Shown here in pieces: positions 1-21,386 of a stretch of 34,988 bases of DNA. A program made the position numbers and the translations under genes. Origin of the DNA: Actinomycetes bacterium (lineage in GTDB: Bacteria; Actinomycetota; Acidimicrobiia; Acidimicrobiales; RAAP-2). The stretch covers positions 1 to 34,988 of the forward strand of contig JAKATH010000016.1 in NCBI GenBank assembly GCA_021828055.1. Reading direction: 5' to 3'. Below the pieces are notes generated by a model. The model saw only the letters and a list, made by a program, of their open reading frames with translations. It ran no database searches and was not told where the DNA came from. The stretch's first letter is position 1. Each line of letters begins with the position of its first letter.

Positions 1-298
1 GGAGCTTGGTGAGGCCGAGCGCCGCGTTGAGCGCCAGCGCCATGCGGTCGACGGTGCCCAGGCCGTTCACGAGGACGCGGAAGCCCGGCTGGTAGCCGGG
101 GATGTCGTCGAACAGCACCGCGGGAGCCCCTTCGGTGTGCTGGAGCAGGTCGGTCGCGTCGCCGATCTCCTGCTCCGAGGACGCGCCCGAGACGTGTCGC
201 AACTGGCCGACCTGCTCGACCTTCTCGAGCCACGCTCGCAGGTCGTAGGTGGCCGGGCGCTTCCGCTCGTTGGACGGGTTCGTCTCACTGTCGCTCAT
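1..298 (-). CDS. UbiD family decarboxylase, N-terminal part (runs off the window)
   Basis: The ATG at 298 opens a minus-strand frame of about 99 codons that is still open at the window edge. It begins MSDSETNPSNERKRP and continues into a DLRAWLEKVEQVGQLRHV segment and an LLQHTEGAPAVLFDDIPG segment. These are the N-terminal signatures of UbiD-type prenyl-FMN decarboxylases and match, segment by segment, the complete UbiD encoded just upstream (404-1957). The catalytic region lies outside the window, so activity cannot be judged. A GAGGAG Shine-Dalgarno-like run sits about 12 bases before the ATG. The gene follows the other UbiD after a 105-base gap and is probably the next gene of the same transcription unit. 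The two UbiDs could be tandem paralogues or two subunits of one enzyme. Confidence 0.85.
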   Translation of the reverse strand, partial: MSDSETNPSNERKRPATYDLRAWLEKVEQVGQLRHVSGASSEQEIGDATDLLQHTEGAPAVLFDDIPGYQPGFRVLVNGLGTVDRMALALNAALGLTKL

Positions 299-317
299 GT
301 GGGCAGTCTGCTCCTCG

Positions 318-345
318 TGCCGTGTTGTGGTTGCCGTGTTGTGGT
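318..345. repeat. Tandem 14-bp repeat (2 copies) upstream of the truncated UbiD gene
   Basis: TGCCGTGTTGTGGT occurs twice head to tail at 318-331 and 332-345, in the short gap between the two UbiD genes. It is less GC-rich than its surroundings. It could be an operator for a dimeric regulator or simple slippage; nothing else in the gap decides between these. Confidence 0.6.
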
Positions 346-403
346 TGATGGCGTCGGTACCTCGATGCAACAGCTGCGTCGCCCCGCGACTCGGCGGTCT
401 TGC

Positions 404-2763: not shown

Positions 2764-2778
2764 CGCGCCGTTCACCTC

Positions 2779-3771
2779 CTACACCTTGTAGCGGTCGAGC
2801 ACCTGGGGGGCGAAGAGCTCTTCGGGCTCGACGAGCCTCGAGGCCACGCCTTGCTCGTGCGCCCAGCGCGTGAACGCCTCGAGCGTCGCCCGGTTCTCCT
2901 CCACGCCGTAGGGGAACGGGTCGGGCCCGAGCAGGTCCCGCATCTCCTCCACCAGGCTCGGCACCCACCCCAGCGGGAGGCGGCTGGCGGTCATCTCCGA
3001 GAGCCGTTCGACGCTGCGGCGCTTGGCTTCGTTGAAGGCGCTGTAGAGGTTGGCGGCGACCCACGGCGCCTGCTCGAGGACGTCGGAGCGCACCACGGTC
3101 ACGTGCATGATGGGGAAGATCCCCGTCCGTTCCACGTACTCGCGCTCGATGGCCCGGTAGTCGGGGAAGAGGCGCACGATGTGGGGCTCTTTGCGCTCGA
3201 AGCTCTCCGGCGGGTGGGCGGAGAAGATCGCGTCGAGGTCGCCGTCGCGCAGCATGTCGTCCAAGCAGCGGTCGGGGACCGGCGTGAGCGAGACGCCCTC
3301 TGGGAGCCCGAGGGCGACCTTCTCGCTCCGGCCCGGAGTGTTGACGCCGGCCTGGAACCACGAGACGTCCTGGAGCGGGATGCCCCACTCGTGCTGGAGC
3401 AGCGCCCGGGTGTACACCGAGGCGGTCTGCGCCCACTCGGGCACGCCGATGCGCCCGCCCGCCAGCTCCTCGGGGCTCGACGGGCCGTCGGGGCGGACGA
3501 AGATCGACGAGTGCCGGCACACCCTGGACGGGAAGACCGGGATGGCGGTGAGGCTCGTGTCGCCGGCGGCCCTGAGGGCGAGGTACTTGGCGAAGGACAG
3601 CTCCGAGACGTGCCACTCCCGGTAGCGCAGGAAGCGGAAGAAGATCTCCTCGATCGGGAGGGTGAGGACGGAGAGCTCGACGCCTTGCACCCGGACGGCG
3701 CCGGTCTCGAGGTCCCGAAGGTGCTCGTAGCCGCTCTGCGCGAACGTGAGGGCGAGGCGCGGCGTGCTCAC
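2779..3771 (-). CDS. 4,5-dihydroxyphthalate decarboxylase-like protein
   Basis: This 330-residue protein resembles the 4,5-dihydroxyphthalate decarboxylase family (Pht5 type), which has a periplasmic-binding-protein-like fold. Family-like stretches include the N-terminal GVELSVLTLPIEEIFFRFL, the AIPVFPSRVCRHSSIFVR segment near residues 77-93, and ELAGGRIGVPEW near 102-113. The start is the GTG at 3771, overlapping the TGA of the upstream DapA-like gene as GTGA; a longer frame to 4053 lies wholly inside that gene. No signal peptide is visible, so a cytoplasmic enzyme is more likely than a transport binding protein. It sits between a lyase and a class II aldolase in the same operon. The fold assignment is good; the true substrate could be any vicinal dicarboxylated or hydroxylated aromatic. 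Confidence 0.82.
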   Translation of the reverse strand: MSTPRLALTFAQSGYEHLRDLETGAVRVQGVELSVLTLPIEEIFFRFLRYREWHVSELSFAKYLALRAAGDTSLTAIPVFPSRVCRHSSIFVRPDGPSSPEELAGGRIGVPEWAQTASVYTRALLQHEWGIPLQDVSWFQAGVNTPGRSEKVALGLPEGVSLTPVPDRCLDDMLRDGDLDAIFSAHPPESFERKEPHIVRLFPDYRAIEREYVERTGIFPIMHVTVVRSDVLEQAPWVAANLYSAFNEAKRRSVERLSEMTASRLPLGWVPSLVEEMRDLLGPDPFPYGVEENRATLEAFTRWAHEQGVASRLVEPEELFAPQVLDRYKV

Positions 3772-4679
3772 GACAGCAGTCCCGCCCTCTCGAGCACCGC
3801 GTCGAGCTTCGCCTCGAGCTCTGGAGTCGCGCTCGCCATCGGGAGGCGGTGCTCGTTGTTCGCCAGCACGCCCATCCGGCGGAGCATGTACTTGATCGGG
3901 ATCGGGTTGGTGTCGAAGAAGACCGACTTGTTCAGCTCCCACAGCTCGTCGTGGATCTTGCGCGCTTCGGCGAGATCGCCGCGGTCCACCGCGTGCCAGA
4001 GCGCGCCGACGCGGCCGGGGACGAGGTTGCCGACGGCGTTCATCATCCCGCACGCCCCGACGGCCAGCATGGGCAGGCTCAGCTCCTCGAGCCCGACGAA
4101 GACCCGGAACTCCGGGCCGAGGCGGCGGAGCACCTCGGTGACGAGCGCGAGGTCGGCGGACGCGTGCTTCATGCCGACGAGGTTGCCCGCCCGTTCGGCG
4201 ATGGCGGCGATCGTCGCGACCTCGAGCGTCACCGAGGCGCGCCCGGGGATGTGGTAGACGAGCACCGGGAGCTCGACCCGGCGGGCCACCTCCACGAAGT
4301 ACTCTTCGAGCCCTCGTTGGGGGGGCCGGATGTAGTACGGCGTCACCACCAAGAGGGCGTCCGCCCCTGCCTCCGCCGCGCCGAGCGACAGCTCGAGCGT
4401 CGAGGCGAGCGACTCGGTCCCGCTGGCCGCGACCACAGGGAGGCGCCCGTCGGCCGCCCGCACCGCCGCCTGGACGAGCGCCAGGCGCTCGGCGACCGTG
4501 AGCACGCTCGGCTCCCCGCTGGTGCCCGTGACCACGACGCCTTGGGAGCCGTTGGTCGCCTGGCGGTCGACGAGCGCCTCGAAGGTCTCCAGGTCGACCC
4601 GGCCGCCGGCGAAGGGGGTGACGACCGGCGTGTAGGAGCCGACCAGCGCGCTCGAAGAGAGCTGGCTCTTCTGGTTCAT
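3768..4679 (-). CDS. DapA-family (dihydrodipicolinate synthase / N-acetylneuraminate lyase superfamily) aldolase
   Basis: This 303-residue Schiff-base aldolase has the family motifs in order: GTSGE (residues 52-56), PYY (114-116), Tyr142 and Arg147 in VYHIPGRAS, and the Schiff-base Lys171 in GMKHAS. Arg147 matches the arginine that binds the carboxylate of aspartate semialdehyde in true DapA, so the sequence alone does not exclude lysine biosynthesis. The gene lies in a catabolic operon, however, with a ring-cleavage-type bicupin on one side and decarboxylase-like genes on the other. In naphthalene, phthalate and related pathways this family supplies pyruvate-releasing hydratase-aldolases, which I favour. 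The ATG at 4679 lies 10 bases after the bicupin stop and lacks a strong Shine-Dalgarno, suggesting reinitiation. Confidence 0.9.
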   Translation of the reverse strand: MNQKSQLSSSALVGSYTPVVTPFAGGRVDLETFEALVDRQATNGSQGVVVTGTSGEPSVLTVAERLALVQAAVRAADGRLPVVAASGTESLASTLELSLGAAEAGADALLVVTPYYIRPPQRGLEEYFVEVARRVELPVLVYHIPGRASVTLEVATIAAIAERAGNLVGMKHASADLALVTEVLRRLGPEFRVFVGLEELSLPMLAVGACGMMNAVGNLVPGRVGALWHAVDRGDLAEARKIHDELWELNKSVFFDTNPIPIKYMLRRMGVLANNEHRLPMASATPELEAKLDAVLERAGLLS

Positions 4680-4689
4680 CGCCGGCCGG

Positions 4690-5913
4690 TCAGTCCGCGC
4701 TGGCGCGGTTGGTCTCGAAGCCGCGCTGGGAGCCGAGCAGCCGGTAGGGCCTCTTCAGGTCCTCCTGCCACATGAGCGAGTCCATCGCGATGTGCAGCGG
4801 GCTGTCTTGGATCGTGAGCTCGTAGACGGGCTCGTCGTTGGACGCGTGGTTGTGGATCATCCAGCCGGGCGCGGTGAGCATGAGGTCGCCCGCCGACCAC
4901 TCGTAGCGCTTCCCGCCCACCCTGCTCCAGCCGCTGCCCGAGAAGAAGTAGTTGATGGCGGCCGAAGCATGGCGATGGGGGCGGTCCACGATGCCCGGTG
5001 GCCGCACGGTCATCGTGGCGAAGAAGTTGTTGCTCGTGCCGTTCGTCCGGCCGGTGGCCGGGTTGTAGAGCAGGTAGAGCCGGCGCCCGCGGTAGGAGGG
5101 GCCCAGGGCGCTCAGCTGGTCGAGCTCCTTTTTCACGTCCCGCCAGGGCCAGTGGAGCGGGTGCTGCTCGACGACCTCGGGGTTGATGAGGCGCTCGTAG
5201 GACATGAGCATCGCGCCGCCGCCGCCGAGCGGGAAGACATGGGCGATCGGGTGCTCGGCGATCTCGTCGGACCCCTCGGGGCGAACGGCGGGCTCCTCGG
5301 GCGGGTGCTCGTCGACGAAGTGGACACGGATCTTCTCGAGCAGCGGCGCATTGGAGTAGGTCAGCCTGACCTGGCGCTCCGAACCGTCGTTCTCGTGGAA
5401 GTAGGTCGTGAGGGCGGGCGTGTACCAGACGTCGTACTGGTCGAAGGGGATCTTCTCGCCCCCGACGGCGGCGAACCCCGACCCGGCGACGCAGAAGCAG
5501 ACCTGCGAGGAGTTGTGCCGGATCGGGGCGGTGCGCTCGCCGGGAAGCAGGACCTCGAGGGTCACGCGGATGCCCGGGGCGAGCCCGAGCCCCGGCTCCT
5601 CGGCGAAGGGGTGGACGATCCAGGCGCTGCGCCGGCCGTCTGGGGGCCGGGGCAGCGAGGCCAGGCGCTCCACCTGGGCCTCGATCTCGCTGGCGCGGAT
5701 GACGACCGGCGGCCACATGACCTCTTCCACCGGTGGGTGACCGGCGCCCAGCCGGTCCACGAACCGTGCAGAGACGGGCTCGGGCCCGTCGTCCTCCTGG
5801 AGGGTCGCCACAGCGCCCGACCGCCGGCCTTGCCCTTCCTCCTCGGTTCGGTCCAGTCGGTCGGTCCAGTCGGTCGGTTCGGTCCGGTCCAGTCGGTCGG
5901 TTCGGTCCGTCAT
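4690..5913 (-). CDS. Gentisate 1,2-dioxygenase-like bicupin protein
   Basis: This 407-residue protein has two cupin domains, at about 95-200 and 280-385, as in gentisate, 1-hydroxy-2-naphthoate and salicylate ring-cleaving dioxygenases. The C-terminal cupin has a clear metal motif: His313-Arg-His315 in DRPHRHASAAINYF, then His354/His356 in PGWMIHNHA. The N-terminal cupin has only IRHNSSQ, lacking a second histidine, so a metal is expected in the second domain. In characterised gentisate dioxygenases the iron sits in the first domain, so the activity may differ. The first 24 residues are a Thr/Asp/Arg repeat encoded by a DNA repeat and are probably disordered. AAAGGG lies upstream of the ATG. 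An oxidative ring-opening role fits the operon; an isomerase or binding role is possible. Confidence 0.82.
   Translation of the reverse strand: MTDRTDRLDRTEPTDWTDRLDRTEEEGQGRRSGAVATLQEDDGPEPVSARFVDRLGAGHPPVEEVMWPPVVIRASEIEAQVERLASLPRPPDGRRSAWIVHPFAEEPGLGLAPGIRVTLEVLLPGERTAPIRHNSSQVCFCVAGSGFAAVGGEKIPFDQYDVWYTPALTTYFHENDGSERQVRLTYSNAPLLEKIRVHFVDEHPPEEPAVRPEGSDEIAEHPIAHVFPLGGGGAMLMSYERLINPEVVEQHPLHWPWRDVKKELDQLSALGPSYRGRRLYLLYNPATGRTNGTSNNFFATMTVRPPGIVDRPHRHASAAINYFFSGSGWSRVGGKRYEWSAGDLMLTAPGWMIHNHASNDEPVYELTIQDSPLHIAMDSLMWQEDLKRPYRLLGSQRGFETNRASAD
5844..5910. repeat. Short tandem repeats encoding the bicupin N-terminus
   Basis: GTCCAGTCGGTCGG occurs at 5851-5864, 5864-5877 and 5887-5900, embedded in further CGGTTCGGTCC copies up to the start codon. 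On the minus strand it encodes repeated TDRLDRTE-type residues. The units are imperfect, but the frame stays open. Confidence 0.8.
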
Positions 5914-6150
5914 CTCGTGGACTCACCCTTTCTCGTCATCGCCGTCATCGCCGAGGGCGCCGTCGCTCTCATCGACGTGCGCCCTGGCCGAGTCGTCCTC
6001 GCGGCTCGAGTCCCTTCGTCGGCCCGGCCCGGCCCGCGGTCTCGCCTCGAGACGGGCCCGCCCCTCCTCACGGCCGGGCGGGGGACCGTCGTCGGAACCG
6101 CTGGGCCCGGGGGGCGCCGTCGGTCACGACCTCGGCACGACGCGACAGCA
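5914..6150. other. Intergenic GC-rich stretch upstream of the bicupin gene
   Basis: No gene is convincing here. It should hold the promoter of the bicupin-to-UbiD operon if that operon is separate from the aldolase gene to the right, but I could not pick a credible -35/-10 pair. The C-terminal tail of the neighbouring chimeric frame reads into its right edge. Confidence 0.4.
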
Positions 6151-7326
6151 TCACCGGCTCGAGCTCACGCCGTTCGAGGTCGCGCCCTGCGGGCCGTCCA
6201 CCGCTCGGCGAGCAGCCGTCTCGCCGGCTGAGCGGTGGGCTCCTCCCGGCCGCGCAGACCCGTCACCGAAATTCCGGTCCGGAGAGTGCGTGGTGGCGGT
6301 GCAGATCGGTTCCTCGAGGGAGCGGATGAGCGCCTTCAAGCGGTCTCCCCGCCGCCGGTGGGAGTTGGCGACCGCCGCGAGGCCCTCGGCCTCGGCACGA
6401 GCGATGAGAAGGTCGATGGTCTGTGCCTGCTGGCGGTGAACCGGGAGGAACCTGCCTCCGGTGAAGAAATGTGAGCATGCAAGGCAGTCCTCCGGCTCGG
6501 GACAGGTGTCGTCGGCGGGCCGGAGGCAGTAGCCGTTCGGCAGGCTCGTACGGATGCGGCTCGAATTCTCCTCGATCCACTCGAGCTCACTGGGCGGGGT
6601 CTCGACCGCCGCCGCCGCCGCACGCGCCTTGCGCCGGAGGTACTGCCAGCCCGACTCGAGAAGTGGCGGGTTCCAGATCTCGTCCCGCTTCGACGCCGCC
6701 TCCGCCTCGTCCGACCACGAGATCGGCTCCCCGGCGGCCATCGCCGCGAGCTGCACCCGGCAGGCCTTGTCGAGGAGCACGGCCGCCATCACGCCGGTGG
6801 CGACGGTCTCCCCGACTGCGACGAGTCCGTGCCGGGGCATGAGGCAGGCTCGAGCATCGCCGAGCGTCGTGGCGAGGCCGACCCCAAGGTCTTTCGTCTT
6901 CACGAGCCCCCCGGTTCGAAGGAAGCGGGGCACGTCAGGGTGGGCGAAGAGCACGCCCTCGTGAGAGAGCGCCCGCAGAGGCACGCCGAGGGACGCGAAG
7001 GCGTTCGCGGCGGCCGAGTGGGTGTGGACGACGCATTCGACATCGGGACGCAACCGGAAGATCTCGCCGTGGATCGGCCACTCGATGTGGCGGGGGCCAG
7101 TGCCCTCGAGGACCTCGCCGTCCAGTCCGACCAGCAGCATCCGGGACGCGACGACCTCCTCGAACCCTAGTCCTGAGGCCTTCATCCAAAAGCCTCGACC
7201 GCGTGGGTCCCGAACAGACACGTGGCCCCACACGAGGTCGCCGTGGCCAGCGACACCGAGCGCCTGATACGCCTCCACGGCCAGCCGGACCGCTTCGTCG
7301 ACGTCTCTCTCCTCGATCAATGCCAT
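6151..7326 (-). CDS. Class II aldolase fused to the zinc-binding C-terminal tail of a tyrosine integrase (chimeric gene)
   Basis: The 391-residue product starts at the ATG at 7326 (GAAAGG about 12 bases upstream). Residues 1-235 are a complete class II aldolase domain with zinc ligands His101 and His103 in VVHTHS and His166 in MPRHG, ending at ESGWQYLRRKAR. Residues from about 245 to 340 are unrelated: LPNGYC, then Cys275, Cys281, Cys284 and His286 in CPEPEDCLACSHF, then FLPVHRQQAQTIDLLIARAEAEG. This matches the C-terminal region of the Tn554-like TnpA/TnpB and related actinobacterial site-specific integrases. The integrase catalytic domain is absent. The last 50 residues look like random read-through. 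The simplest reading is that an element inserted at, or was deleted down to, the 3' end of the aldolase gene and left an in-frame fusion. The aldolase part may still be active. Confidence 0.82.
   Translation of the reverse strand: MALIEERDVDEAVRLAVEAYQALGVAGHGDLVWGHVSVRDPRGRGFWMKASGLGFEEVVASRMLLVGLDGEVLEGTGPRHIEWPIHGEIFRLRPDVECVVHTHSAAANAFASLGVPLRALSHEGVLFAHPDVPRFLRTGGLVKTKDLGVGLATTLGDARACLMPRHGLVAVGETVATGVMAAVLLDKACRVQLAAMAAGEPISWSDEAEAASKRDEIWNPPLLESGWQYLRRKARAAAAAVETPPSELEWIEENSSRIRTSLPNGYCLRPADDTCPEPEDCLACSHFFTGGRFLPVHRQQAQTIDLLIARAEAEGLAAVANSHRRRGDRLKALIRSLEEPICTATTHSPDRNFGDGSARPGGAHRSAGETAARRAVDGPQGATSNGVSSSR
6304..6594 (-). mobile_element. Remnant of a Tn554-type/tyrosine integrase gene (C-terminal end only)
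   Basis: The minus-strand translation here carries the cysteine cluster and FLPVHR/LLIARAEAEG helix typical of the C-terminus of Tn554-like integrases. Nothing upstream encodes the Arg-His-Arg-Tyr recombinase core; that position is occupied by the aldolase domain in the same frame. It is therefore a truncated mobile gene. Boundaries are approximate. Confidence 0.75.
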
Positions 7327-7353
7327 CGCCACAGAATACCTTTCTGCTCGTTG

Positions 7354-7419: not shown

Positions 7420-7461
7420 CCGCCCGGTGCCGGGCGACGGACATCTCGACCGTCCACACGC

Positions 7462-8701: not shown

Positions 8702-8765
8702 TCGAGGAATCCGTTTCTGTTCGAGGGAGCTTGGACAGAACGATACGTGCCATAAGGGGGAATGC

Positions 8766-12449: not shown

Positions 12450-14145
12450 GCTGAGCGCCGCTCCGACAGTGGCTGCCACGACGCAGCCCGTTGCGCGGTC
12501 GGACGTTCGAGACGCGCCCGGTCAGCACCCGCCGAGGGGGACGACGCGCCGGGACCGCCCGCTGCACCGGCTCCCGCTCGACTCGGACGTCGTCGAGCTG
12601 CTGACGGTCGGCATCGACGTCGGGTCCGCGACGTTCCACCTGACCGTGTCGCGGGTCGTGCTCGAGCGCAGGGCTCAGGAGCTCTCGACCAACTACGACG
12701 TCGTCGCCCGCGAGGTCCTCGTCTCCTCGCCCGTCTCCTTCACCCCGTACCTCGACTCGGGCGAGATCGACGCGGCGGCGGTCGGTGAGGCGGTCCGCCG
12801 CTCCTACGCAGAGGGGGGCGTGGACCCCGAGGAGATCGACACCGGGGTGGTGCTCCTCACGGGCGCCGCCCTCCTCCGGCGCAATGCCCGGGCGCTGGCC
12901 GAGCGGCTGGCGGGAGCGACGGGGAGGTTCGTCTGCGCGGCCGCCGGACACCACTTCGAAGCCGCGCTGGCCGCCCATGGCTCGGGTGCGGTCGCCCGGT
13001 CCCGGGAGACGCCGGACCCGGTCGTCGCCCTGGACGTCGGGGGCGCGACGACGAAGCTGGCCCTCGTCTCGTGCGGCGAGGTGCGGGCGACGGCTGCCGT
13101 CGGGGTCGGCAGCCGGCTCATCGCCTGGGACCCGGAGCGCCGGCTCGTACGGGTGGAACAAGCCGTCCTGCCGCTCGCCGAGTCCGTCGGCGTCGCAGCC
13201 GAGCTGGGGCACGTGATCGACCCGGCCCAGGTCGACGCCGTCTGCGACCGGATGGCCCTCGCCGTCGTCGCCCAGCTCGACCCTCGGATCGAGGTGGGAG
13301 CGGGCGCGCCGACGATGCTGCTGACCGACCCCTTCCCCGTGCCCGACGGGCCCTTCGAGATCGTGGCGTCGGGTGGCGTGGCGGAGTACCTGGTCCGTGC
13401 CGCCGGCGATGCCGCCGCCGACGACCTGGGGGACCTCGGGCCCCACCTCGCCCGCGCGCTCCTCTCCCGGCTCCAGGCGGCTGGGCTCGGTGCCCGGCTG
13501 CGGGTCGGCGACCAGCGGATCAGGGCGACTGTGATCGGCGCGTCCCAGTTCTCGACCCAGGTGAGCGGCTCGACGATCGCGGTTGACGAGACGGCGCTGC
13601 CGCTCCACAACGTGCCAGTCGTTCGGCCCGCGCTCGACCTCGGAGCAGCGCCCGTCGACCCCCGCGCGGTGGCTTCGGCGCTGGCGGAGGCGCTGCGCCG
13701 GCGGTTCTCGGCGCAGGAGGTTCCCCGCACGCTCGCCGTGTCGCTGCGCTGGCGCGGGGATCCGGCCTACGCGCGCTTGCGCGCGCTGGCCGCCGGGCTC
13801 GTCGCCGGTCGAAAGGCAGCCGGGGTGGAGCAGCTCGTCGTCGCCGTCGACACCGACGTGGCCTCGTCGCTCGGCCGCATCATGACCACAGAGCTCGGGG
13901 TCGACCCGGCAGCCGCGCTCTGCCTCGACAACCTCGACCTCGCCGAATTCGACCACGTCGACATCGGCCTGCCGGTCGGTCCGGCCAGCGTGGTCCCGGT
14001 CGTGGTGAAGTCTCTCCTCTTCGGCGCGGTCGATCCCAGTTCGCCGCGTCCCGTCGAACCGCGCCCGGTCGCCCGATCCGAGCTCCCAGAGCCCCCAGCA
14101 CCCATGGCCGGGAGTCAAGCCGAGAGTCAAGGAGAGCTCACGTGA
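12436..14145 (+). CDS. EutA-like ASKHA ATPase (ethanolamine ammonia-lyase reactivase family), orphan
   Basis: The 569-residue protein resembles EutA, the ATP-dependent reactivase of adenosylcobalamin-dependent ethanolamine ammonia-lyase. It has two actin/Hsp70-type phosphate loops: TVGIDVGSATFHLTVSR near residues 57-73 and VVALDVGGATTKLALVS near 196-212. EutA-like stretches include REVLVSSPVSFTPYLDSGEID and DTGVVLLTGAALLRRNARALAE. The N-terminus is about 50 residues longer than the usual EutA core. The GTG start at 12436 overlaps the permease gene by 14 bases, with a weak GTTGGA before it. No EutB or EutC lyase is visible in the window, so its client is unknown. It could reactivate an enzyme of this operon or a B12 enzyme elsewhere. 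Family membership is solid; the function is open. Confidence 0.82.
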   Translation: MPRVELSAAPTVAATTQPVARSDVRDAPGQHPPRGTTRRDRPLHRLPLDSDVVELLTVGIDVGSATFHLTVSRVVLERRAQELSTNYDVVAREVLVSSPVSFTPYLDSGEIDAAAVGEAVRRSYAEGGVDPEEIDTGVVLLTGAALLRRNARALAERLAGATGRFVCAAAGHHFEAALAAHGSGAVARSRETPDPVVALDVGGATTKLALVSCGEVRATAAVGVGSRLIAWDPERRLVRVEQAVLPLAESVGVAAELGHVIDPAQVDAVCDRMALAVVAQLDPRIEVGAGAPTMLLTDPFPVPDGPFEIVASGGVAEYLVRAAGDAAADDLGDLGPHLARALLSRLQAAGLGARLRVGDQRIRATVIGASQFSTQVSGSTIAVDETALPLHNVPVVRPALDLGAAPVDPRAVASALAEALRRRFSAQEVPRTLAVSLRWRGDPAYARLRALAAGLVAGRKAAGVEQLVVAVDTDVASSLGRIMTTELGVDPAAALCLDNLDLAEFDHVDIGLPVGPASVVPVVVKSLLFGAVDPSSPRPVEPRPVARSELPEPPAPMAGSQAESQGELT

Positions 14146-15266
14146 ACCGGACAGAGACCGATTCGGCTGTCCTGGAAGCTGCTGCGGCGGGGAAGCTCCT
14201 GAAGAGGCCCTACCTCGACTGGGCGAGGGACCAGAGGGTCCCGGTCGTCGAGGGCTTCGCCGTCGACCTGCTCACCGTCGAGACCAAGCCGTGGGACCGG
14301 CTCGGCGCGCCTGCCGCCTTCGTGCACCTCGTCGGGCGTGGCGACTGGGCCAACGTCGTCGTGGCCGTGCTCCCGCCGGGCAGCGCCACCGATCCCCAGC
14401 GGCACCTCTACGAAGAAGTCGTCTACGTCTTGGCCGGCCACGGCAACACCGTGGTGCGCGACCCGGCGGGAGGCGAGCACAGCTTCGAGTGGGGACCGCG
14501 CAGCCTCTTCGGGCTCCCCATCAACGCGCCGTACCGGCACTTCAACGCCGCCGGCAGCGAGGAGGCCCGTCTGGCCTCGGTCACCAGCCTCCCGCTCGTG
14601 CTGAACGTCTTCCACGACGAGTCGTTCGTGTTCGACAACCCGGGCGAGTTCCCCGGACGTTTCGGCGACGACGCAAGGTTCCGCGGCGAGGGCGACTTCG
14701 TGCACGTCGCGCCGGGTCGTCACATGTGGGAGACCAACTTCGTACCGGACCTCGCCGACTTCCAGATGCCCGAGTGGCAGGCGCGTGGTGAGGGAAGCCG
14801 GAACTTGAAGTTCGTCCTCGCCGACTCGACCATGCACGCGCACATGTCCGAGATGCCGGTCGGCACCTACAAGAAAGGTCACCGCCACGCGCCCGACTTC
14901 CACGTCTTCACCGTGGACGGCCGCGGCTACAGCCTCTTCTGGTACGAAGGCGACAGCGACTTCACTCGAATCGACTGGCGCCACGGCGTCGTCTACGCGC
15001 CCGGCGACCAGCAGTTCCACCAGCACTTCAACATCTCGGGGCACCCGAGCCGCTACCTGGCGGTCGCGTACGGCGGTCTGCGCTACCCCTTCACCGAGGA
15101 GCGGCGCCAGCACTTCATGGGCGTCGACAAGAGCGTCGCCGAAGGTGGGCGCCAGATCGACTACGCCGACGAGGACCCGCGCATCCGGGAGCTCTACGTG
15201 TCCGAGCTCGTCCGCGACGGCATCGAGTGCAGGATGCCGCCGATCGACCGCGGCCGCCCACGATGA
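14142..15266 (+). CDS. Bicupin (two-cupin-domain) protein
   Basis: This 374-residue protein has two cupin folds, at about 60-150 and 225-315. The second has a probable metal site: His247-Arg-His249 in YKKGHRHAPDFHVFTV and His293/His295 in QQFHQHFN. The first has DPQRHLYEEVVYVLAGHG with one histidine and two glutamates, so it may be a weaker site. It shares the C-terminal-site arrangement with the bicupin at 4690-5913 but is otherwise only distantly similar. The GTG start overlaps the EutA-like stop as GTGA and has AAGGAGAG upstream. A ring-modifying dioxygenase or isomerase would suit the operon, but no characterised enzyme can be named with confidence. Confidence 0.8.
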   Translation: MNRTETDSAVLEAAAAGKLLKRPYLDWARDQRVPVVEGFAVDLLTVETKPWDRLGAPAAFVHLVGRGDWANVVVAVLPPGSATDPQRHLYEEVVYVLAGHGNTVVRDPAGGEHSFEWGPRSLFGLPINAPYRHFNAAGSEEARLASVTSLPLVLNVFHDESFVFDNPGEFPGRFGDDARFRGEGDFVHVAPGRHMWETNFVPDLADFQMPEWQARGEGSRNLKFVLADSTMHAHMSEMPVGTYKKGHRHAPDFHVFTVDGRGYSLFWYEGDSDFTRIDWRHGVVYAPGDQQFHQHFNISGHPSRYLAVAYGGLRYPFTEERRQHFMGVDKSVAEGGRQIDYADEDPRIRELYVSELVRDGIECRMPPIDRGRPR

Positions 15267-15856
15267 GCGCGGCGACCGGCTCTTCGGGACGGCGCCGGCT
15301 CGTGGTCGGCATCTCGGGCTCGAGCGCGCCGCAGCTCGGGATCGCGTTGCTGGAGGCGCTGCACCGCAGCGAAGAGGTGGAGACCCACCTCGTCATCAGC
15401 GAGGGCGCGCGGCGCAGCATCGAGCTCGAAGCCGGTCTCGACCCGGATCGAGTGGCGAAGCTGGCGACGGCGGCGTACGACCCGCGGGACCTGGCGGCGG
15501 CGATCTCGTCGGGGTCGTTCCTGACCGACGGCATGGTCGTCATCCCCTGCTCGATGCGGACGCTCGCCGCGGTGGCGACGGGGAACGCGACCGACCTGCT
15601 CGTCCGTGCCGCCGACGTGACGCTCAAGGAACGGCGCCGCCTCGTGCTCGTCGCCCGCGAGTCGCCGCTCAACCTCGTCCACATCCGCAACATGGAGGTG
15701 GTGACGCTCGCCGGTGCCACCGTCATGCCGCCCGTGCTCGGCTTCTACCACCGTCCGAAGGCGGTCGAGGACCTGGTGGCCCAGGTGGTGGGGAAGGTGC
15801 TGGACCAGTTCGGCATCTCTCACGACCTGTTCCGGCGTTGGGGGTCGGCGGGGTGA
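15263..15856 (+). CDS. UbiX/Pad1-type flavin prenyltransferase
   Basis: UbiX transfers a dimethylallyl group to reduced FMN, making the prenyl-FMN cofactor of UbiD decarboxylases. The 197-residue product has the family features in order: the FMN-binding loop VGISGSSAPQLGIALLEAL near residues 12-30, VVIPCSMRTLAAVATGNATD in the middle, the RESPLNLVHIRNM segment, and the C-terminal ATVMPPVLGFYHRPKAVEDLV with conserved Tyr and Arg. The start is the ATG at 15263 overlapping the bicupin stop as ATGA. Two UbiD-type genes lie on the opposite arm (1-298 and 404-1957) and none in this operon, a strong functional link between the arms. Confusion with other flavoprotein decarboxylases is unlikely. Confidence 0.9.
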   Translation: MSAATGSSGRRRLVVGISGSSAPQLGIALLEALHRSEEVETHLVISEGARRSIELEAGLDPDRVAKLATAAYDPRDLAAAISSGSFLTDGMVVIPCSMRTLAAVATGNATDLLVRAADVTLKERRRLVLVARESPLNLVHIRNMEVVTLAGATVMPPVLGFYHRPKAVEDLVAQVVGKVLDQFGISHDLFRRWGSAG

Positions 15857-16332
15857 GAGGGCCAGCGCCCGCCGCCTCCGGCGAGGTGCCGGCTCGGGTG
15901 CGTGACGCGGTCGCCGGGGTGCCTGAGGTCGGCACGCTCGACCATGCGTTCATGTTCTTGACCGTCGACGTCCAAGGACGGGTGGACGTCTGCCTCTTGT
16001 CGCGCACCGAGGTCGAGACGACGCCGTCGTCGATCCGGGTCGTGGTGGCGAGCAGCAAGGCGCGCCGCAACCTGCGGGCGACCGGGCGGGCGACCTTCGT
16101 GGCGGTGACCGGGGACGCCGCCCACTACCTCGCGCTGGCGGTGGTGCGGGTGCTCGAGGACGCTGGCGCGATCGGCGCCGAGCTGGAGGTGGAACGGGAC
16201 CTGCTCGACGACCTGGGCGTGGAGCTCCACCCGATCCGCTTCCGGGTCGCAGAGAAGCTGGCGGTCGAGGAGCGCTGGGACCGGACCAGGCGCCTCCTCG
16301 CGCGCCTTGCGTCCGAGGACGCGGCGTCGTGA
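15853..16332 (+). CDS. Small protein of pyridoxamine-phosphate-oxidase-like split-barrel type (tentative)
   Basis: This 159-residue protein starts at the GTG overlapping the UbiX stop (GTGA). The stretches LDHAFMFLTVDVQGRVDVCLLSRTEV and VVVASSKARRNLRATGRATFVAV look like the flavin-binding split barrel of PNPOx-like proteins: a beta strand after the N-terminal helix, then the serine/lysine strand and an N-L-R phosphate-binding turn. It has no signal peptide or membrane span. Placed directly after UbiX and before the molybdenum hydroxylase, it may be an FMN-dependent reductase that supplies reduced flavin or acts on a pathway intermediate. The fold call rests on motif resemblance only. Confidence 0.6.
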   Translation: MRGPAPAASGEVPARVRDAVAGVPEVGTLDHAFMFLTVDVQGRVDVCLLSRTEVETTPSSIRVVVASSKARRNLRATGRATFVAVTGDAAHYLALAVVRVLEDAGAIGAELEVERDLLDDLGVELHPIRFRVAEKLAVEERWDRTRRLLARLASEDAAS

Positions 16333-18584
16333 CGCTCGCCTGGCCGCGTGTGGTCGGGCCCCGGGTGGACGCGCGGGACAAGGCGACCGGCGCCACGCGC
16401 TACAGCGCAGACGTGGAGTCCGAAGGCGCGTTGCACGCTGCGGTCGTTCGCAGCACGGTGCCCCACGCCGAGGTCCTCGCCGTCGACGCGAGCGCGGCGC
16501 TCGCGATCCGGGGCGTGACCGCGGTGGTGACCGCACGGGACCTCGAGCGTCGCTTCGGGGACGAGCTGTGCGGGCGCCGCGTGCGCGACATGCCGCTCCT
16601 CGCCAGGGACAAGGTGCGCTTCCCCGGGGAAGGGATCGCGGTGGTGCTCGCCACGACGCGGCGGGTGGCCGAGGACGCGGCTGCGCTCGTGGTGGTCGAG
16701 TACCGCGAGCTGCCTCCGGTCCTCGACGCGCTGGGCGCCCTCGAGCCCGATGCCCCCCGCGTCCACGAATCGCCCTGGCGCTACGACGGCGCGGTCGTGG
16801 ACCCGTCGGACCCGCCCAACCTCCAGTCCGGGCTCGTCGAGGGCGACCTCGTGGCCGTCGACGAGGTGCTCGGGCGCGCGGCGCACGTCGTCACCCGCAC
16901 GTACCGCACTCCCTCGGGCTATCAGGGGTACCTCGAGCCCCAGTGCTGGACGGCGTCGCCCCGCCCCGGAGGCGGCGTGGCGCTGCTCGGCACGGCCAAG
17001 GCGCCGTACCGCCTGCGGGAGCAGACCGCGAAGACCCTGGGCCTCGCGCTCGACGCGGTGGAGGTGGAGCCGGCGCCCCTCGGCGGCGACTTCGGGGGCA
17101 AGGGCGGGGTCGTCGACCCGACGCTGTGCGCGGCGCTGGCCCTGTGGGCGAACCGCCCGGTGCGCCTCGCGCTGCGCGCGGGAGAGGACATGACCGCCAC
17201 CGACGCCCGCCATCCTTCGGTGGTCGAGGTCCGCGTGGGCTGCGACGCCGACGGGACCCTGCTCGCGCTCCGCGTCGACGCCGTCTTCGACGGCGGCGCC
17301 TACGCGGCGGTGAAGCCGATCCCGTCGGCCAACCTGCACGGGATGGCCGAGTGCGCGCTCGGCTACCGCCTGGAGGCCTTCTTCGTGCGATCCCGGATCG
17401 CGTACACGACGACGGTGCCCAAGGGGCACATGCGGGCGCCCGGCGCTCCCCAGGCGGTGTTCGCCATCGAGAGCGCGCTCGACGAGCTCGCGTCTGCGGC
17501 CGGGGTGTCCCCGGTGGTGCTGCGGCGGCGGAGCGTGCTCGCCGGAGGCGACCGCGACGCCTACGGCCACGTGTGGGACGAGGCGCGCGGCACCGAGACC
17601 CTCGACGCCGCCCTTGCGGCGGGAGACGCGGCTCCGCGACCAAAAGACCGCGGGCGCTCCGGCTGGCGGCGCCCGGCTCCGTCAGGGTGGCGCCGCGGAA
17701 GGGGCGTCGCCCTCTACGCGCGTCCGACCGCGCCGCCGGCGACCACCAGCCTCCGCCTCGCGCCGGGCGACGACGGACGGCTCGTCGTCGAGCTCCCCTT
17801 CCCCGAGACCGGGACCGGCAGCCATTCGGTCGTGCGCGAGGAGCTCGCCGCCTCGCTCGGCGTCGACCCCGAGCGCGTCGAGGTCCGCCAGGTGTCGACC
17901 GCGTCGCTCCCCTACGACCCCGGCGTCGGCGCGAGCCGGGTCACGGTCGGGCTCACCGCGGCCGTGCGTCAGCTTGCCGGCCGCTGGTCGGAGTCAGGCG
18001 GCACCGAGGCCGTGACGATCGAGACGGGCTCGGGGACCGAACCTCCCGCGCTCTCCTTCTGTGCCCAGGTCGCGGACGTCGCCGTCGATCCCGAGACCGG
18101 CCAGGTCCTTGTCTTGGGCGTGGTGACGGCCGCCGACGTCGCGTCGGTCCTGCGCCCCCGCTCGCATCGGATGCAGATCGACGGGGGGGCGGTCATGGGC
18201 TACGGCTTCGCCTGCCTGGAGGACCTCCTCGAGGGAGACGGCCAGGTGTGGGCGACGAACCTCGCCGAGTTCCGGCTGCCCACTGCGCAGGACGTCCCCT
18301 CCCTGCGGACGGTGCTCGTCGAGGGCGGGCGGGGAGTGGGCCCCGCCAACGTCAAGGCGGTGGGAGAGCTGTCGAACGTGCCGACCGCGGCCGCCATCGC
18401 CAACGCCGTCGCCGAGGCGACGGGACGCCGATTTCGCCAGCTCCCGCTCACCGCCGAGCGCGTGTTCTGGGCGCTGCACGGCGAGGCCGGAGAAGAGGCC
18501 GGAGAAGAGGCCGGAGAAGAGGCCGGAGAAGAGGCCGGAGAAGAGGCCGGAGAAGAGGCCGGAGAAGAGGAGGGACCGGCGTGA
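16329..18584 (+). CDS. Molybdopterin-binding large subunit, xanthine dehydrogenase/CoxL family hydroxylase
   Basis: This 751-residue catalytic subunit would bind Mo-molybdopterin and insert water-derived oxygen into a substrate C-H bond, or catalyse the reverse dehydroxylation. Family motifs appear in order: GYQGYLEPQ near residues 197-205, the GGDFGGKGG loop near 254-262, MRAPGAPQAVFAIES, PETGTGSHSVVREELA, DPGVGASRVTVG, the MQIDGGAVMGYG region, and the base-catalyst region NVKAVGELSNVPTAAAIANA, whose Glu matches the catalytic GVGE glutamate. No CoxL-specific cysteine active loop is evident, so CO oxidation is unlikely. The GTG start overlaps the preceding stop (GTGA). The last 30 or so residues are a Gly-Glu-Glu-Ala repeat from a 12-bp DNA repeat. 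No XdhC-type cofactor-insertion gene is nearby. Confidence 0.9.
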   Translation: MTLAWPRVVGPRVDARDKATGATRYSADVESEGALHAAVVRSTVPHAEVLAVDASAALAIRGVTAVVTARDLERRFGDELCGRRVRDMPLLARDKVRFPGEGIAVVLATTRRVAEDAAALVVVEYRELPPVLDALGALEPDAPRVHESPWRYDGAVVDPSDPPNLQSGLVEGDLVAVDEVLGRAAHVVTRTYRTPSGYQGYLEPQCWTASPRPGGGVALLGTAKAPYRLREQTAKTLGLALDAVEVEPAPLGGDFGGKGGVVDPTLCAALALWANRPVRLALRAGEDMTATDARHPSVVEVRVGCDADGTLLALRVDAVFDGGAYAAVKPIPSANLHGMAECALGYRLEAFFVRSRIAYTTTVPKGHMRAPGAPQAVFAIESALDELASAAGVSPVVLRRRSVLAGGDRDAYGHVWDEARGTETLDAALAAGDAAPRPKDRGRSGWRRPAPSGWRRGRGVALYARPTAPPATTSLRLAPGDDGRLVVELPFPETGTGSHSVVREELAASLGVDPERVEVRQVSTASLPYDPGVGASRVTVGLTAAVRQLAGRWSESGGTEAVTIETGSGTEPPALSFCAQVADVAVDPETGQVLVLGVVTAADVASVLRPRSHRMQIDGGAVMGYGFACLEDLLEGDGQVWATNLAEFRLPTAQDVPSLRTVLVEGGRGVGPANVKAVGELSNVPTAAAIANAVAEATGRRFRQLPLTAERVFWALHGEAGEEAGEEAGEEAGEEAGEEAGEEAGEEEGPA
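18483..18566. repeat. Seven perfect 12-bp tandem repeats at the 3' end of the Mo-subunit gene
   Basis: GAGGCCGGAGAA is repeated seven times without error, giving an (EAGE)n acidic tail. The array runs into GAGGAGGGA, so its purine-rich end merges with the AGGAGGG Shine-Dalgarno (18568-18574) of the next gene at 18581. A unit of 12 keeps the frame whatever the copy number. Confidence 0.97.
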
Positions 18585-19045
18585 AGCTGCACGCCCGCGT
18601 CAACGGATCGCCGTTCGTCGCCGAGGTCCCCGCCACATCGAGCCTCCTCGAGGTGCTGCGTGGTGCCGGGCTGACCGGGACCAAGGAAGGGTGCCGAATC
18701 GGGGTGTGCGGGGTGTGCACGGTGCTCGTCGACGACCGGCCGGTGAGCTCGTGCCTCTACCTCGCGGGTTGCGCCAGCGAGGCGGACATCTGGACCGTCG
18801 AGGGCATGGCGGAGCGCGCGCCGTCGGTGGTCGACGCCTTCGTCGAGTGCGAGGGGATGCAGTGCGGCATCTGCACTCCGGGCCAGATCGTGGCCGTCGC
18901 GTCGATGGGCCCCGACGTCCGCGACGAGAACGGCGTCCGCCGCTACCTGAGCGGCAATCTGTGCCGCTGCACCGGGTACGGCACGATCGTGGATGCAGCC
19001 CTCGACGCGCAGGCGCGCCGACGGGGCGAGGTCGCGCCGACGTGA
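18581..19045 (+). CDS. [2Fe-2S] iron-sulfur subunit of the molybdenum hydroxylase (CoxS/XdhC-like small subunit)
   Basis: This 154-residue protein carries two [2Fe-2S] clusters that pass electrons from Mo to FAD. The plant-ferredoxin-type cluster uses Cys38, Cys43, Cys46 and Cys58 (GCRIGVCGVCTVL). The second, in the helical domain, uses Cys95, Cys98, Cys128 and Cys130 (MQCGICTPGQ and NLCRCTGYG). All eight ligands are present and the length is normal. The GTG start overlaps the stop of the large subunit (GTGA) and has a strong AGGAGGG upstream, which may raise expression of this small subunit. Confidence 0.95.
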   Translation: MKLHARVNGSPFVAEVPATSSLLEVLRGAGLTGTKEGCRIGVCGVCTVLVDDRPVSSCLYLAGCASEADIWTVEGMAERAPSVVDAFVECEGMQCGICTPGQIVAVASMGPDVRDENGVRRYLSGNLCRCTGYGTIVDAALDAQARRRGEVAPT

Positions 19046-19920
19046 CCGACCCGCCTTCCGGCGAAGCGGCGTTCCTCGTCCCCGGCACGGTCGAAGCGGC
19101 CGTCGAGGCGCTCGGAGCCGCTGGCGCCGTGGCTGTCGCCGGCGGTACCTCGATCGGTCTGCTGGTCGGCCAGGGCCTGCTCGCTCCCTCGGTGCTCGTA
19201 TGGCTCGGCCGCATCCCCGAGCTGTCTGTCCTCGAGGAAGGGGACGGGCAGATGTCCATCGGCGCCACCACCACCCTCGCCACCCTCGCCGCCCATCCGC
19301 GGGTGCGAACGGCGGTGCCTGCGCTCGCCGACGCCGCGGCGTCGGTCGGCAACACCCGGGTGCGTGCCGTGGCGACGATCGGCGGCGCCTTGGGGCACGC
19401 CGACCCTCGGCAGGATCTCCCGCCTGCGCTCCTCGCCCTCGACGCGCGCGTCGAGGTGGCGGGTGGGCGAGGCCGACGCCACCTGGCGATCGACGAATTG
19501 ATCGACGGCTTCATGTCGACGGATCTCGGCCCCGACGAGGTCATCACCGCCGTGCGCGTGCCGCTCGTGGACGGCCGGCGGAGCTGCTACCTCCGGTTCA
19601 CGCCAGGCAGCGCCGACGACTACCCGACGGTCGCGGTGGCCGCGACCGCCGAGGTCGCCGACGGGGTGCCGACCGCAGTGCGCCTCGCGATCGGCGGTGC
19701 CGGTCCCGCCGCCTACCTCGTGCCCGAGGCCGAGCAGGTGGAGGGCGCGCCCGAGGGGAGGTGGGCGGCCGAGGTGGCCGAGGTGGCCGAGGCTGCAGCC
19801 CGCAGGGCCGACCCGGTGGACGACAGGCTCGGCTCGGCGGCCTACAAGCGCCGCATGGTCGCCGTCTGGGCGAGACGGGCGCTCGAGCGGTGCCTCGGCG
19901 CCGATGGCGTCCAACCCTGA
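19042..19920 (+). CDS. FAD-binding medium subunit of the molybdenum hydroxylase (CoxM-like)
   Basis: This 292-residue subunit has the FAD-binding motifs of the family: AVAGGTSIGLLVGQG near residues 28-42 and VATIGGALGHADPRQDLPPAL near 111-131. A C-terminal CO-dehydrogenase-flavoprotein domain follows (AVRLAIGGAGPAAYLV onward). It would take electrons from the 2Fe-2S clusters and pass them to an acceptor. The GTG start overlaps the preceding TGA (GTGA). It is the last of the unbroken chain of overlapping genes; a fresh promoter follows its stop codon. Confidence 0.93.
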   Translation: MTDPPSGEAAFLVPGTVEAAVEALGAAGAVAVAGGTSIGLLVGQGLLAPSVLVWLGRIPELSVLEEGDGQMSIGATTTLATLAAHPRVRTAVPALADAAASVGNTRVRAVATIGGALGHADPRQDLPPALLALDARVEVAGGRGRRHLAIDELIDGFMSTDLGPDEVITAVRVPLVDGRRSCYLRFTPGSADDYPTVAVAATAEVADGVPTAVRLAIGGAGPAAYLVPEAEQVEGAPEGRWAAEVAEVAEAAARRADPVDDRLGSAAYKRRMVAVWARRALERCLGADGVQP

Positions 19921-19950
19921 CCGGGCCTCGGGACGGACCGGGGTCCTTGC

Positions 19951-19979
19951 TTGACGCTCCCGCGACCGGCCCGTACGTT
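19951..19979 (+). promoter_or_regulatory. Predicted promoter of the CMD-family / class II aldolase gene pair
   Basis: TTGACG (19951-19956) and TACGTT (19974-19979) are spaced by exactly 17 bp, in the only gap of the right arm. The leader would be about 65 bases and ends with a GAGGAGGAG Shine-Dalgarno at 20039-20047. Confidence 0.6.
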
Positions 19980-20049
19980 ACAGGCATCGTCTCTCGAGGT
20001 GCAGGTCTGGGCGCGGTGTTCCTGCTCCAGCTTCGGCCGAGGAGGAGTG

Positions 20050-20610
20050 GTGGGCCAGATCCGACGTCTTCGATTCGACGAGCTCGCCCCCGAGCTAAAG
20101 GACGCGCTCCACGCCAAGGTCGACCGCCTCGGCTACCTGGGTGAGTTCTTCGCCGTCGGCGGCCACCAGCCCGCGGCGACGACCGCCTTCCAGGCTTTCA
20201 CCGAAGCCCTGAAGGCGGCGCTCCCCGCCGAGATCACGGAGGTCGTCGCCCTTGGCGTCGCGTCCGCGCTCGGGAACGCCTACGAGCAGAGCCAGCACGA
20301 GCGGTTGGCCCAGACCCTCGGGTTCCCTGTCGCCTGGATCGCGGCCGCCGCCGGCCGCGGCGATCCCTCCGCTCTGAGCGCGAACGCCAGGGCCGCCCGG
20401 CAGCTCGCGCTCGCCGTCGTCGACCGGTACGGCCAGGGCGCCGGTCCAGAGCTCGAGCGGGCCGTCGACACGCTCGGTCAGGAGGCCGCCGTGGGCGTGC
20501 TGCTCACCGTTGGACGCTACGTCGCCCACGCGGTGGTCGCGAACACGCTGGAGCTCGCGGCTCCCGTCGAAGGCGTCCTTCCCGCCGCTGCAGCCGGCGG
20601 CGCCGAGTGA
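20050..20610 (+). CDS. Carboxymuconolactone decarboxylase (CMD/AhpD) family protein
   Basis: This 186-residue protein starts at one of two adjacent GTG codons (20047 or 20050) right after a GAGGAGGAG ribosome-binding site; I chose 20050 for spacing. The GEFFAVGGHQPAATTAFQAFTEALKAALPAEITEVVALGVAS segment is typical of the CMD helical fold. The following NAYEQSQHERLAQTLG carries the YE..H form of the active-site helix rather than the CxxC form of AhpD peroxidases, so a redox-active disulfide is not expected. Members of this family include 4-carboxymuconolactone decarboxylase, and many are uncharacterised. It is translationally coupled to the next aldolase. Confidence 0.78.
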   Translation: MGQIRRLRFDELAPELKDALHAKVDRLGYLGEFFAVGGHQPAATTAFQAFTEALKAALPAEITEVVALGVASALGNAYEQSQHERLAQTLGFPVAWIAAAAGRGDPSALSANARAARQLALAVVDRYGQGAGPELERAVDTLGQEAAVGVLLTVGRYVAHAVVANTLELAAPVEGVLPAAAAGGAE

Positions 20611-21386
20611 GCGAGCCGGACGCCGCCTCGGCGCCGGCCGGTCCTGAGCAGCTTGCGGCGGGTCGCGTCGACGTCGCGCGTGCGTGCCGGGTGCTCGCGG
20701 CGGAGGGCCTCGTGTCCGACATCCTCGGCCACGTGAGCCTGCGTGTGGACGGCCGCCGCATGCTCATCCGAGCGCGCAGCGCCTCGGACCCCGGGCTCCT
20801 CCTCACGAGGCCCGAAGACGTCGTCCTCACCGACTTCGACGGTGTGCCGGCCGAGGAGCTGGGCGACCGCCAGCTGCCCCAGGAGCTTCCGATCCACGGG
20901 GAGCTGCTGCGGCTGCGCCCCGACGACGGCGCCGTCGTGCACGCCCACCCTCCCGACGTGGTGCTGTGCAGCATCGCGGACCTGCCCCTGCGCCCCGTGT
21001 TCGGCGCCTTCAACATCCCCGCGATGCGCATGGCTGAGCGCGGGCTTCCGGTGTTCGACTACTACGGTCTGGTGAGGACTCGCGAACGCGGCGAGCAGAT
21101 GGTGGCGGCGATGGCAGGCGCGCGCGCGGCCCTGCTGCGCGGCCACGGCCTCACCACGGCTGCGCCCACCTTGGCGGGGGCGGTGGTGACGGCGCTCAAC
21201 GTCAACCTGCTCGCGCGCATGACCGCCGCGCTCGCCGCTGCGGGACGCAACGCGCCCGAGGTGCCCGACGCCGACCGTGCGGAGCTGCCCGACCTGGGCG
21301 GGGCCTTCAACGACGAGCTCGTCTGGCGCCACCACGTCGCGAAGCTTGCGTGGCGCGGCTTGAGCCTCGACGCCGCAGAAGGATGA
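20607..21386 (+). CDS. Class II aldolase/adducin family protein
   Basis: This 259-residue protein is the third class II aldolase in the window. The zinc ligands are His112 and His114 in VVHAHPPDVV and the histidine of LLRGHGLTT; the GHVSLR motif near residue 41 matches the GNxSxR substrate loop, and LPIHGELLRLRP holds the helix that normally carries the acid/base residue. The GTG start overlaps the preceding gene (GTGA). It is about as similar to the other two aldolases as any family members, not a recent duplicate. A decarboxylase or retro-aldol role on a product of the pathway is inferred from context. It ends 9 bases from the convergent thiolase gene. Confidence 0.87.
   Translation: MSEPDAASAPAGPEQLAAGRVDVARACRVLAAEGLVSDILGHVSLRVDGRRMLIRARSASDPGLLLTRPEDVVLTDFDGVPAEELGDRQLPQELPIHGELLRLRPDDGAVVHAHPPDVVLCSIADLPLRPVFGAFNIPAMRMAERGLPVFDYYGLVRTRERGEQMVAAMAGARAALLRGHGLTTAAPTLAGAVVTALNVNLLARMTAALAAAGRNAPEVPDADRAELPDLGGAFNDELVWRHHVAKLAWRGLSLDAAEG

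Follow-up and report, generated by a model that had tools for sequence, protein, structure and literature searches.

A EutA-like ATPase gene paired with a bicupin gene in a predicted aromatic carboxylate cluster

Introduction

What does a relative of EutA, the reactivating factor of ethanolamine ammonia-lyase, do among genes that appear to serve the breakdown of aromatic acids? The question is raised by positions 1–21386 of contig JAKATH010000016.1 (GenBank assembly GCA_021828055.1), part of a 2.64-Mb metagenome-assembled genome (MAG; G000, 84% complete) of a bacterium in the order Acidimicrobiales. We analysed the 34,988 nucleotides with which this contig (C4) opens, hereafter the window. Genes were called with a codon model and families were assigned by Pfam and NCBIfam profile searches. 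In the window, the gene for a EutA-like ATPase of the ASKHA superfamily (12577–14145, plus strand; start uncertain, possibly 12469) is directly followed by the gene for a two-domain cupin, bicupin b (14142–15266, plus strand). We put the probability at roughly 0.6 that the locus as a whole is an aromatic carboxylate catabolic cluster with a built-in helper module consisting of these two proteins.

The EutA-like gene is linked to a bicupin gene

A scan for bicupin b identified at least 575 relatives, of which the best 79 loci were retained for locus work. These loci span Actinomycetota, Chloroflexota, and Alpha-, Beta-, Gamma- and Deltaproteobacteria. A six-frame profile search detected a EutA-like gene in 47 of the 79 and, in every one of the 47, it lies on the same strand and no more than 335 bases from the bicupin gene. 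Sixteen genomes whose bicupin loci showed no EutA-like gene in the stretch fetched were examined, and each carries one elsewhere.

The association also holds for whole genomes. Among 738 genomes drawn from three groups, the bicupin is present in all 25 whose EutA-like gene is well resolved; each draw was centred on a genome in which the pair was already known, and the genomes sampled lack phylogenetic independence. The count is 2/2 in the class of the window (247 genomes, setting aside two weak cupin matches of 89–109 bits) and 19/19 in Chloroflexota (301 genomes), and in Alphaproteobacteria (190 genomes) both genes occur in the same four. The Chloroflexota exceptions are a bicupin at a contig end (G713), a weak partial bicupin (G511) and a EutA-like fragment at a contig end (G776). 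This co-occurrence makes it very probable that the EutA-like ATPase is tied to bicupin b and most likely acts on it. Consistent with this, distances among EutA-like proteins correlate with those among their bicupin partners (r 0.71; shuffled maximum 0.29), partly through shared phylogeny. A first-pass annotation of the sequence had listed bicupin b as another bicupin and had not linked it to the EutA-like protein. It is not simply one more ring-cleavage enzyme, but an almost obligate companion of that protein.

The EutA-like protein could instead be a catalytic ATPase or kinase subunit that activates a substrate with ATP, after which the bicupin converts it. Hydantoinase and acetone/acetophenone carboxylase, each with an ASKHA subunit, are precedents for such a two-protein enzyme, and the strict adjacency wherever a locus holds both genes would suit it. 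So would the protein itself: its structural model (predicted local distance difference test score, pLDDT, 81) is an ASKHA ATPase by fold search, with matches to exopolyphosphatase, AnmK and CoA-dehydratase activators, and the phosphate and adenosine motifs of the superfamily are kept in EutA-like proteins. A sequence search of the PDB gave no match at E 0.1. Gene numbers point the other way, however. A single genome carries one to four EutA-like genes for up to 11 bicupins, and some bicupin loci, single or tandem, have no EutA-like gene in the vicinity. A helper is therefore favoured over a fixed subunit, and we consider the catalytic-subunit arrangement unlikely.

Several further features of these loci were noted. 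Tandem arrays of two to four bicupin b paralogues, with or without a single EutA-like gene, occur at L062, L072, L078, L075 and L118. A heme-oxygenase-like diiron protein is often encoded near bicupin arrays that lack a EutA-like gene. Two EutA-bicupin loci share a further bicupin-related protein beginning VFLRGITSE (L004:8650–9663 and L025:12745–13710). An apparent EutA-bicupin gene fusion in G067 was rejected, since the 1214-codon open frame runs antisense through a divergent bicupin gene.

The EutA-like proteins form a clade apart from EutA

The window protein aligns with the whole of the Pfam EutA profile (positions 2–474 of 475, 1.7e-97), and a gene for a B12-binding mutase (26560–28533) lies 12 kb downstream. 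It might thus be an ordinary EutA that stands beside the bicupin gene by chance, its client being either ethanolamine ammonia-lyase or a different B12 enzyme (this mutase, for instance). The protein scores far below the curated NCBIfam EutA cut-offs, however (269 vs 598 bits and 212 vs 769 bits). Furthermore, EutB, the ethanolamine ammonia-lyase itself, was not found in G000 or in 21 other carriers by searches in which the E. coli control was positive, and it is absent from 28 of 30 carriers once eight further ones are added.

Chloroflexota contain both types of protein. None of the 19 bicupin-bearing EutA-like genomes in this phylum has EutB, while five other genomes, with EutA matches of 336–366 bits, all have EutB next door and none has the bicupin. 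These five are true EutA proteins; E. coli EutA itself scores 329 on the same profile. In a phylogenetic tree, 54 EutA-like proteins split from the five on a branch with a Shimodaira–Hasegawa-like approximate likelihood ratio test (SH-aLRT) value of 100. It follows that the EutA-like proteins constitute a clade of their own, in which the partner has been exchanged. The absence of EutB and the position of the clade led us to reject an ethanolamine/B12 function; taken with the strict bicupin linkage, they make an ordinary EutA placed here by chance highly improbable.

Compared with EutA, the EutA-like proteins belong to the same Pfam family over their full length (31–36% identity to the E. coli protein), but their partner is a bicupin rather than EutB, and many have a distinctive N-terminus rich in His and Asp. 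Most start with a short segment ahead of the ATPase core, such as MHDLDFDHGH or MHDMEFDHEH. An HxH motif within the 60 residues before the core is present in 46 of 58 EutA-like proteins vs 3 of 107 bicupins, some EutA-like proteins have poly-His stretches at either end, and the five true EutA proteins have no His-rich N-terminal extension. Where it occurs, this N-terminus suggests that the bicupin is reactivated, or loaded with metal, in an ATP-driven step. Specificity for nickel was considered, as genes for NikR and a HoxN/NixA transporter lie beside the EutA-like gene of Phyllobacterium zundukense (L035:6911–10042), and was rejected because the arrangement is repeated at no other locus.

Bicupin b resembles ring-cleaving dioxygenases in fold

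The model of bicupin b (pLDDT 89) matches gentisate and salicylate 1,2-dioxygenases (Z 20–21) and oxalate decarboxylase (Z 19–20). While the fold is shared with the dioxygenases, identity to them is 11–15% and the conserved residues are placed differently. Gentisate dioxygenases have a 3-His metal site in the N-terminal cupin. In bicupin b this site is incomplete, with Gln, Val or Met at position 86 and His133 in only 82 of 110 sequences, and it is the C-terminal cupin in which His247, His249, His293 and His295 are invariant (110/110) and His254 nearly so (99/110). The EutA-like companion is a further difference from these dioxygenases.

By analogy, the EutA-like protein may treat the bicupin as EutA treats ethanolamine ammonia-lyase, either reactivating it at the expense of ATP or loading its His-coordinated metal. 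We offer this mode of action tentatively. With similar reserve, it can be proposed that a clade of EutA left the B12 enzymes and became a dedicated ATP-driven reactivase or metal-loading factor for a large, unassigned family of bicupins that act in the breakdown of aromatic polycarboxylates in at least three phyla. To our knowledge, no ASKHA helper for a cupin metalloenzyme is known.

The pair stands among genes predicted to serve aromatic carboxylate catabolism

The first-pass annotation had described UbiD, UbiX, bicupin, EutA-like and molybdenum (Mo) hydroxylase genes, with their own importer, on two divergent arms. Pfam and NCBIfam matches place every named gene there, mostly in overlapping frames, although two genes had been overlooked (15853–16332 and 20047–20610). 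The plus arm (8766–21386, all plus strand) opens with an ABC importer: an NMT1/NitT-type substrate-binding protein (8766–9827; Pfam NMT1), permease 1 (9842–10765, start uncertain; Pfam BPD_transp_1), the transporter ATPase (10762–11607; Pfam ABC_tran) and permease 2 (11604–12449; Pfam BPD_transp_1). The EutA-like and bicupin b genes follow, and then the UbiX flavin prenyltransferase (15263–15856; NCBIfam TIGR00421, 228.9 bits vs a cut-off of 108.9) and the first of the overlooked genes, for a PNPOx-like protein (15853–16332) similar to PhdC, the maturase of prenylated flavin mononucleotide (prFMN; 96 bits to PDB 9srg). The conserved site of PhdC from Mycolicibacterium fortuitum comprises Glu47, Phe126, a hydrophobic residue 132, Glu136 and Trp138 (PMC13040415), and all five positions are kept in the window protein as E53, F130, L136, E140 and W142. 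The three subunits of the Mo hydroxylase come next: molybdopterin (16329–18584; Pfam MoCoBD_1/2 and Ald_Xan_dh_C), 2Fe-2S (18581–19045; Pfam Fer2 and Fer2_2) and FAD (19042–19920; Pfam FAD_binding_5). The arm ends with the second overlooked gene, for a CMD/AhpD-family protein (20047–20610; Pfam CMD; also present at L069), and with class II aldolase-family protein c (20607–21386), which is of the 3,4-dihydroxyphthalate decarboxylase (PhtC) type (NCBIfam NF053537, 285.5 bits vs a cut-off of 200).

Four-base overlap between frames is a usual mark of a single operon. Six junctions in a row show such an overlap of stop and start codons (14142/14145, 15263/15266, 15853/15856, 16329/16332, 18581/18584 and 19042/19045), and the seven genes from the EutA-like gene through the Mo FAD subunit therefore look like one operon.

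The minus arm (all minus strand) reads from 7332 down to 2. It begins with class II aldolase/adducin-family protein b, which has a C-terminal extension (6151–7332; Pfam Aldolase_II 9.3e-40), and continues with bicupin a (4690–5811), assigned by profile matches as gentisate 1,2-dioxygenase-like. Bicupin a may have such a function, though it falls below the equivalog cut-off of NCBIfam TIGR02272 (79.6 vs 442 bits) and is not classed as a gentisate 1,2-dioxygenase by it. The next gene encodes a class I lyase of the DHDPS/DapA type (3768–4679; Pfam DHDPS 2.1e-70; NCBIfam TIGR02313 279 bits, below cut-off), probably a pyruvate-yielding aldolase. After it come a 4,5-dihydroxyphthalate decarboxylase-like (DHPD-like) protein (2779–3771; 249 bits to PDB 9jp7; homologues in 20 loci) and class II aldolase/adducin-family protein a (1954–2775; Pfam Aldolase_II 2.1e-29). 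Proteins a and b are below the PhtC cut-off that protein c exceeds. A relative of protein a (52%) also adjoins the EutA-bicupin pair in Phyllobacterium. The arm closes with two UbiD-family decarboxylases. UbiD2 (404–1957, start uncertain; Pfam UbiD 1.4e-64 and UbiD_C; 311 bits to PDB 7pda) is above the NCBIfam TIGR00148 subfamily cut-off (270.3 vs 244.9 bits). UbiD1 (2–298; Pfam UbiD_N and synteny) is cut by the contig end to its N-terminal 98 residues and is complete in G008 (L026:2529–3989). As UbiX and the maturase are encoded together, they would be able to serve the UbiD proteins of the opposite strand.

That the two arms belong together, as the first-pass annotation had supposed, is borne out by comparison of gene neighbourhoods, in which both recur elsewhere. 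The annotation had named a lack of such co-occurrence as grounds for its own refutation, and the comparison shows the opposite. An actinobacterial relative, G008, has the whole set, with matched genes 87–98% identical. Another actinobacterial MAG (L038, 50–76%) has the importer, class II protein a, the DHPD-like protein, the DapA-type lyase, both bicupins and the Mo enzyme, though their order differs, and L039 (45–71%) has the importer, the DHPD-like and EutA-like proteins, bicupin b, class II proteins c and a, a UbiD and the Mo enzyme. A reduced set is found in the proteobacterial L069 (bicupin b, EutA-like, DHPD-like, UbiX, CMD, bicupin a and DapA-type).

We consider it probable that the cluster serves the catabolism of an aromatic or heteroaromatic carboxylate. 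The earlier proposal of such a pathway agrees with the genes for decarboxylation by UbiD and UbiX and for a gentisate-type ring-cleaving bicupin; its substrate, order of steps and N-heteroaromatic option stay at the level of prediction. The substrate is probably a di- or polycarboxylate, and the route suggested by gene content is as follows. The ABC importer would bring in an aromatic, possibly N-heteroaromatic, di- or polycarboxylate, to the ring of which the Mo hydroxylase would add one or more hydroxyl groups. Carboxylates would be removed by unrelated decarboxylases, namely the two prFMN-dependent UbiD proteins, the relative of 4,5-dihydroxyphthalate decarboxylase and the PhtC-type class II protein, with UbiX supplying prFMN and the PhdC-like protein maturing it. 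Bicupin a would then open the ring, and the DapA-type lyase would cleave the chain to pyruvate.

Could the substrate be specifically an N-heteroaromatic carboxylate, such as a pyridine di- or polycarboxylate, that the Mo hydroxylase attacks next to its ring nitrogen? A complete three-subunit enzyme of the xanthine dehydrogenase family is encoded within the operon of overlapping genes, and the closest large subunits of known structure include such N-heteroaromatic hydroxylases as 6-hydroxypseudooxynicotine dehydrogenase, nicotinate dehydrogenase and quinoline 2-oxidoreductase. CO dehydrogenase and 4-hydroxybenzoyl-CoA reductase are also among the relatives with solved structures, however, and every match of the Mo subunits is far below curated cut-offs; the match to the XdhA equivalog reaches 341 of the 780 bits required, and the enzyme is not classed as a xanthine dehydrogenase proper. 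Nor is a Mo enzyme found near most relatives of the EutA-bicupin module. We regard this narrower assignment as possible but somewhat doubtful.

Neighbourhoods of the pair in other genomes point to phthalate-type compounds

The genes near the pair elsewhere were counted over fetched loci, some of which are near-duplicates. They encode a Rieske protein of the LigXa/phthalate dioxygenase type (11 loci), its reductase (9), a MocA-type dehydrogenase (8), DHPD-like proteins (20), quinolinate phosphoribosyltransferase (QPRTase; 9), bicupin a (10), UbiD (19 loci, 34 copies), class II aldolase-family proteins (14) and the Mo large subunit (10), as well as tripartite carboxylate transporters. A class III CoA-transferase accompanies UbiD at six loci, and some pair loci combine UbiD with two class III CoA-transferases. 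QPRTase is part of phthalate 4,5-dioxygenase operons, and the set of Rieske protein, reductase, dehydrogenase, DHPD-like protein and QPRTase resembles the published operons of this kind. The QPRTase paralogue lies near the pair mostly in phthalate-type clusters (L077, L083, L086, L088, L095, L097, L103 and L113) and possibly shields NAD synthesis from phthalate-like inhibitors.

The theme common to these contexts is aromatic di- and polycarboxylates. Substrates of the phthalate type are suggested by the PhtC equivalog, the relative of 4,5-dihydroxyphthalate decarboxylase and the clusters resembling oph and pht that surround the pair elsewhere. With the pht/oph phthalate clusters (PMC13040137) the window shares the PhtC-type and 4,5-dihydroxyphthalate decarboxylase-type proteins; unlike them, it has the Mo hydroxylase and UbiD proteins instead, and neither a Rieske phthalate dioxygenase nor a cis-dihydrodiol dehydrogenase was found among the window genes searched by profile. 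In other genomes, phthalate-type clusters embed the EutA-bicupin pair. A review of phthalate degradation describes UbiD phthaloyl-CoA decarboxylases with CoA-transferases and mentions neither EutA nor cupins (PMC13040137). The phdABC genes of M. fortuitum encode a UbiD decarboxylase, UbiX and the PhdC maturase (PMC13040415). In the window, too, a PhdC-like gene comes immediately after UbiX and the cluster includes UbiD, but its two UbiD genes are on the opposite strand, the partners are others and the substrate is probably another.

Several observations weigh against an aromatic carboxylate cluster with a helper module. A EutA-like gene is missing from the fetched stretch at 32 of the 79 bicupin loci, and EutB does occur elsewhere in the genome in 2 of 8 further carriers. 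Part of the correlation between partner distances reflects shared phylogeny. The window EutA-like protein and its close relatives do not have the HxH N-terminus; judged by this feature, metal handling is not a general property. In bicupin b the N-terminal cupin looks degenerate, and the fold is almost as close to that of oxalate decarboxylase (Z 19.7). Some pair loci in Chloroflexota have CoA and UbiD genes of anaerobic type, which is awkward for an O2-dependent bicupin.

The EutA-bicupin pair is a new arrangement of known protein families rather than a new kind of protein. It is apparently widespread and undescribed; no description was found in the literature searched, although most subscription papers were beyond reach and an unseen report is possible. 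In Phyllobacterium, EutA-like genes beside bicupin genes are annotated as the ethanolamine ammonia-lyase reactivating factor, a function that most carrier genomes cannot use. If the proposed relationship is true, the activation partner of a bicupin family with at least 575 relatives and up to 11 members per genome has been overlooked, and heterologous assays of the family that omit the EutA-like protein may fail. Clusters of this kind are carried by bacteria from soil, groundwater and marine settings and may process aromatic di- and polycarboxylates that derive from organic matter or plasticisers; they would therefore bear on the mineralisation of that carbon.

The cluster is accessory and probably continues on a second contig

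Within the genus, a EutA-like gene scores above the family cut-off in only 4 of 13 genomes, and the cluster is therefore accessory. Synteny with G008 indicates that it runs on into contig C7, which starts with the C-terminus of UbiD1 and has two stretches 91–92% identical to the region adjoining UbiD1 in G008. The gene order C4–UbiD1–C7 is thus likely, across an unsequenced join. The two matching stretches are separated by 13.5 kb that is not at that place in G008 and that encodes a second EutA-like protein and two bicupins (61% and 38% to bicupin b). Contig C7 also carries a Rieske-type relative. UbiD1 appears to be duplicated: C4 begins within it, and the end of C7 encodes a 98% identical N-terminus (window 1–313; L004:1–208; L031:14125–14437). 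The C7 copy is preceded by no more than the final 19 residues of class II protein a, as if by recombination.

Within the window, no RNA families or tRNA genes were found. The B12-binding gene at 26560–28533 is of the methylmalonyl-CoA mutase family, has carboxyltransferase and thiolase genes near it, and gives no sign of belonging to the cluster. The 1.4-kb divergent region that separates the two arms contains a tandem repeat with units of 13, 53 and 66 bases (8365–8535). A second, perfect tandem repeat (12 bases, 7.3 copies, 18483–18570) encodes the EAGE-rich tail of the Mo large subunit.

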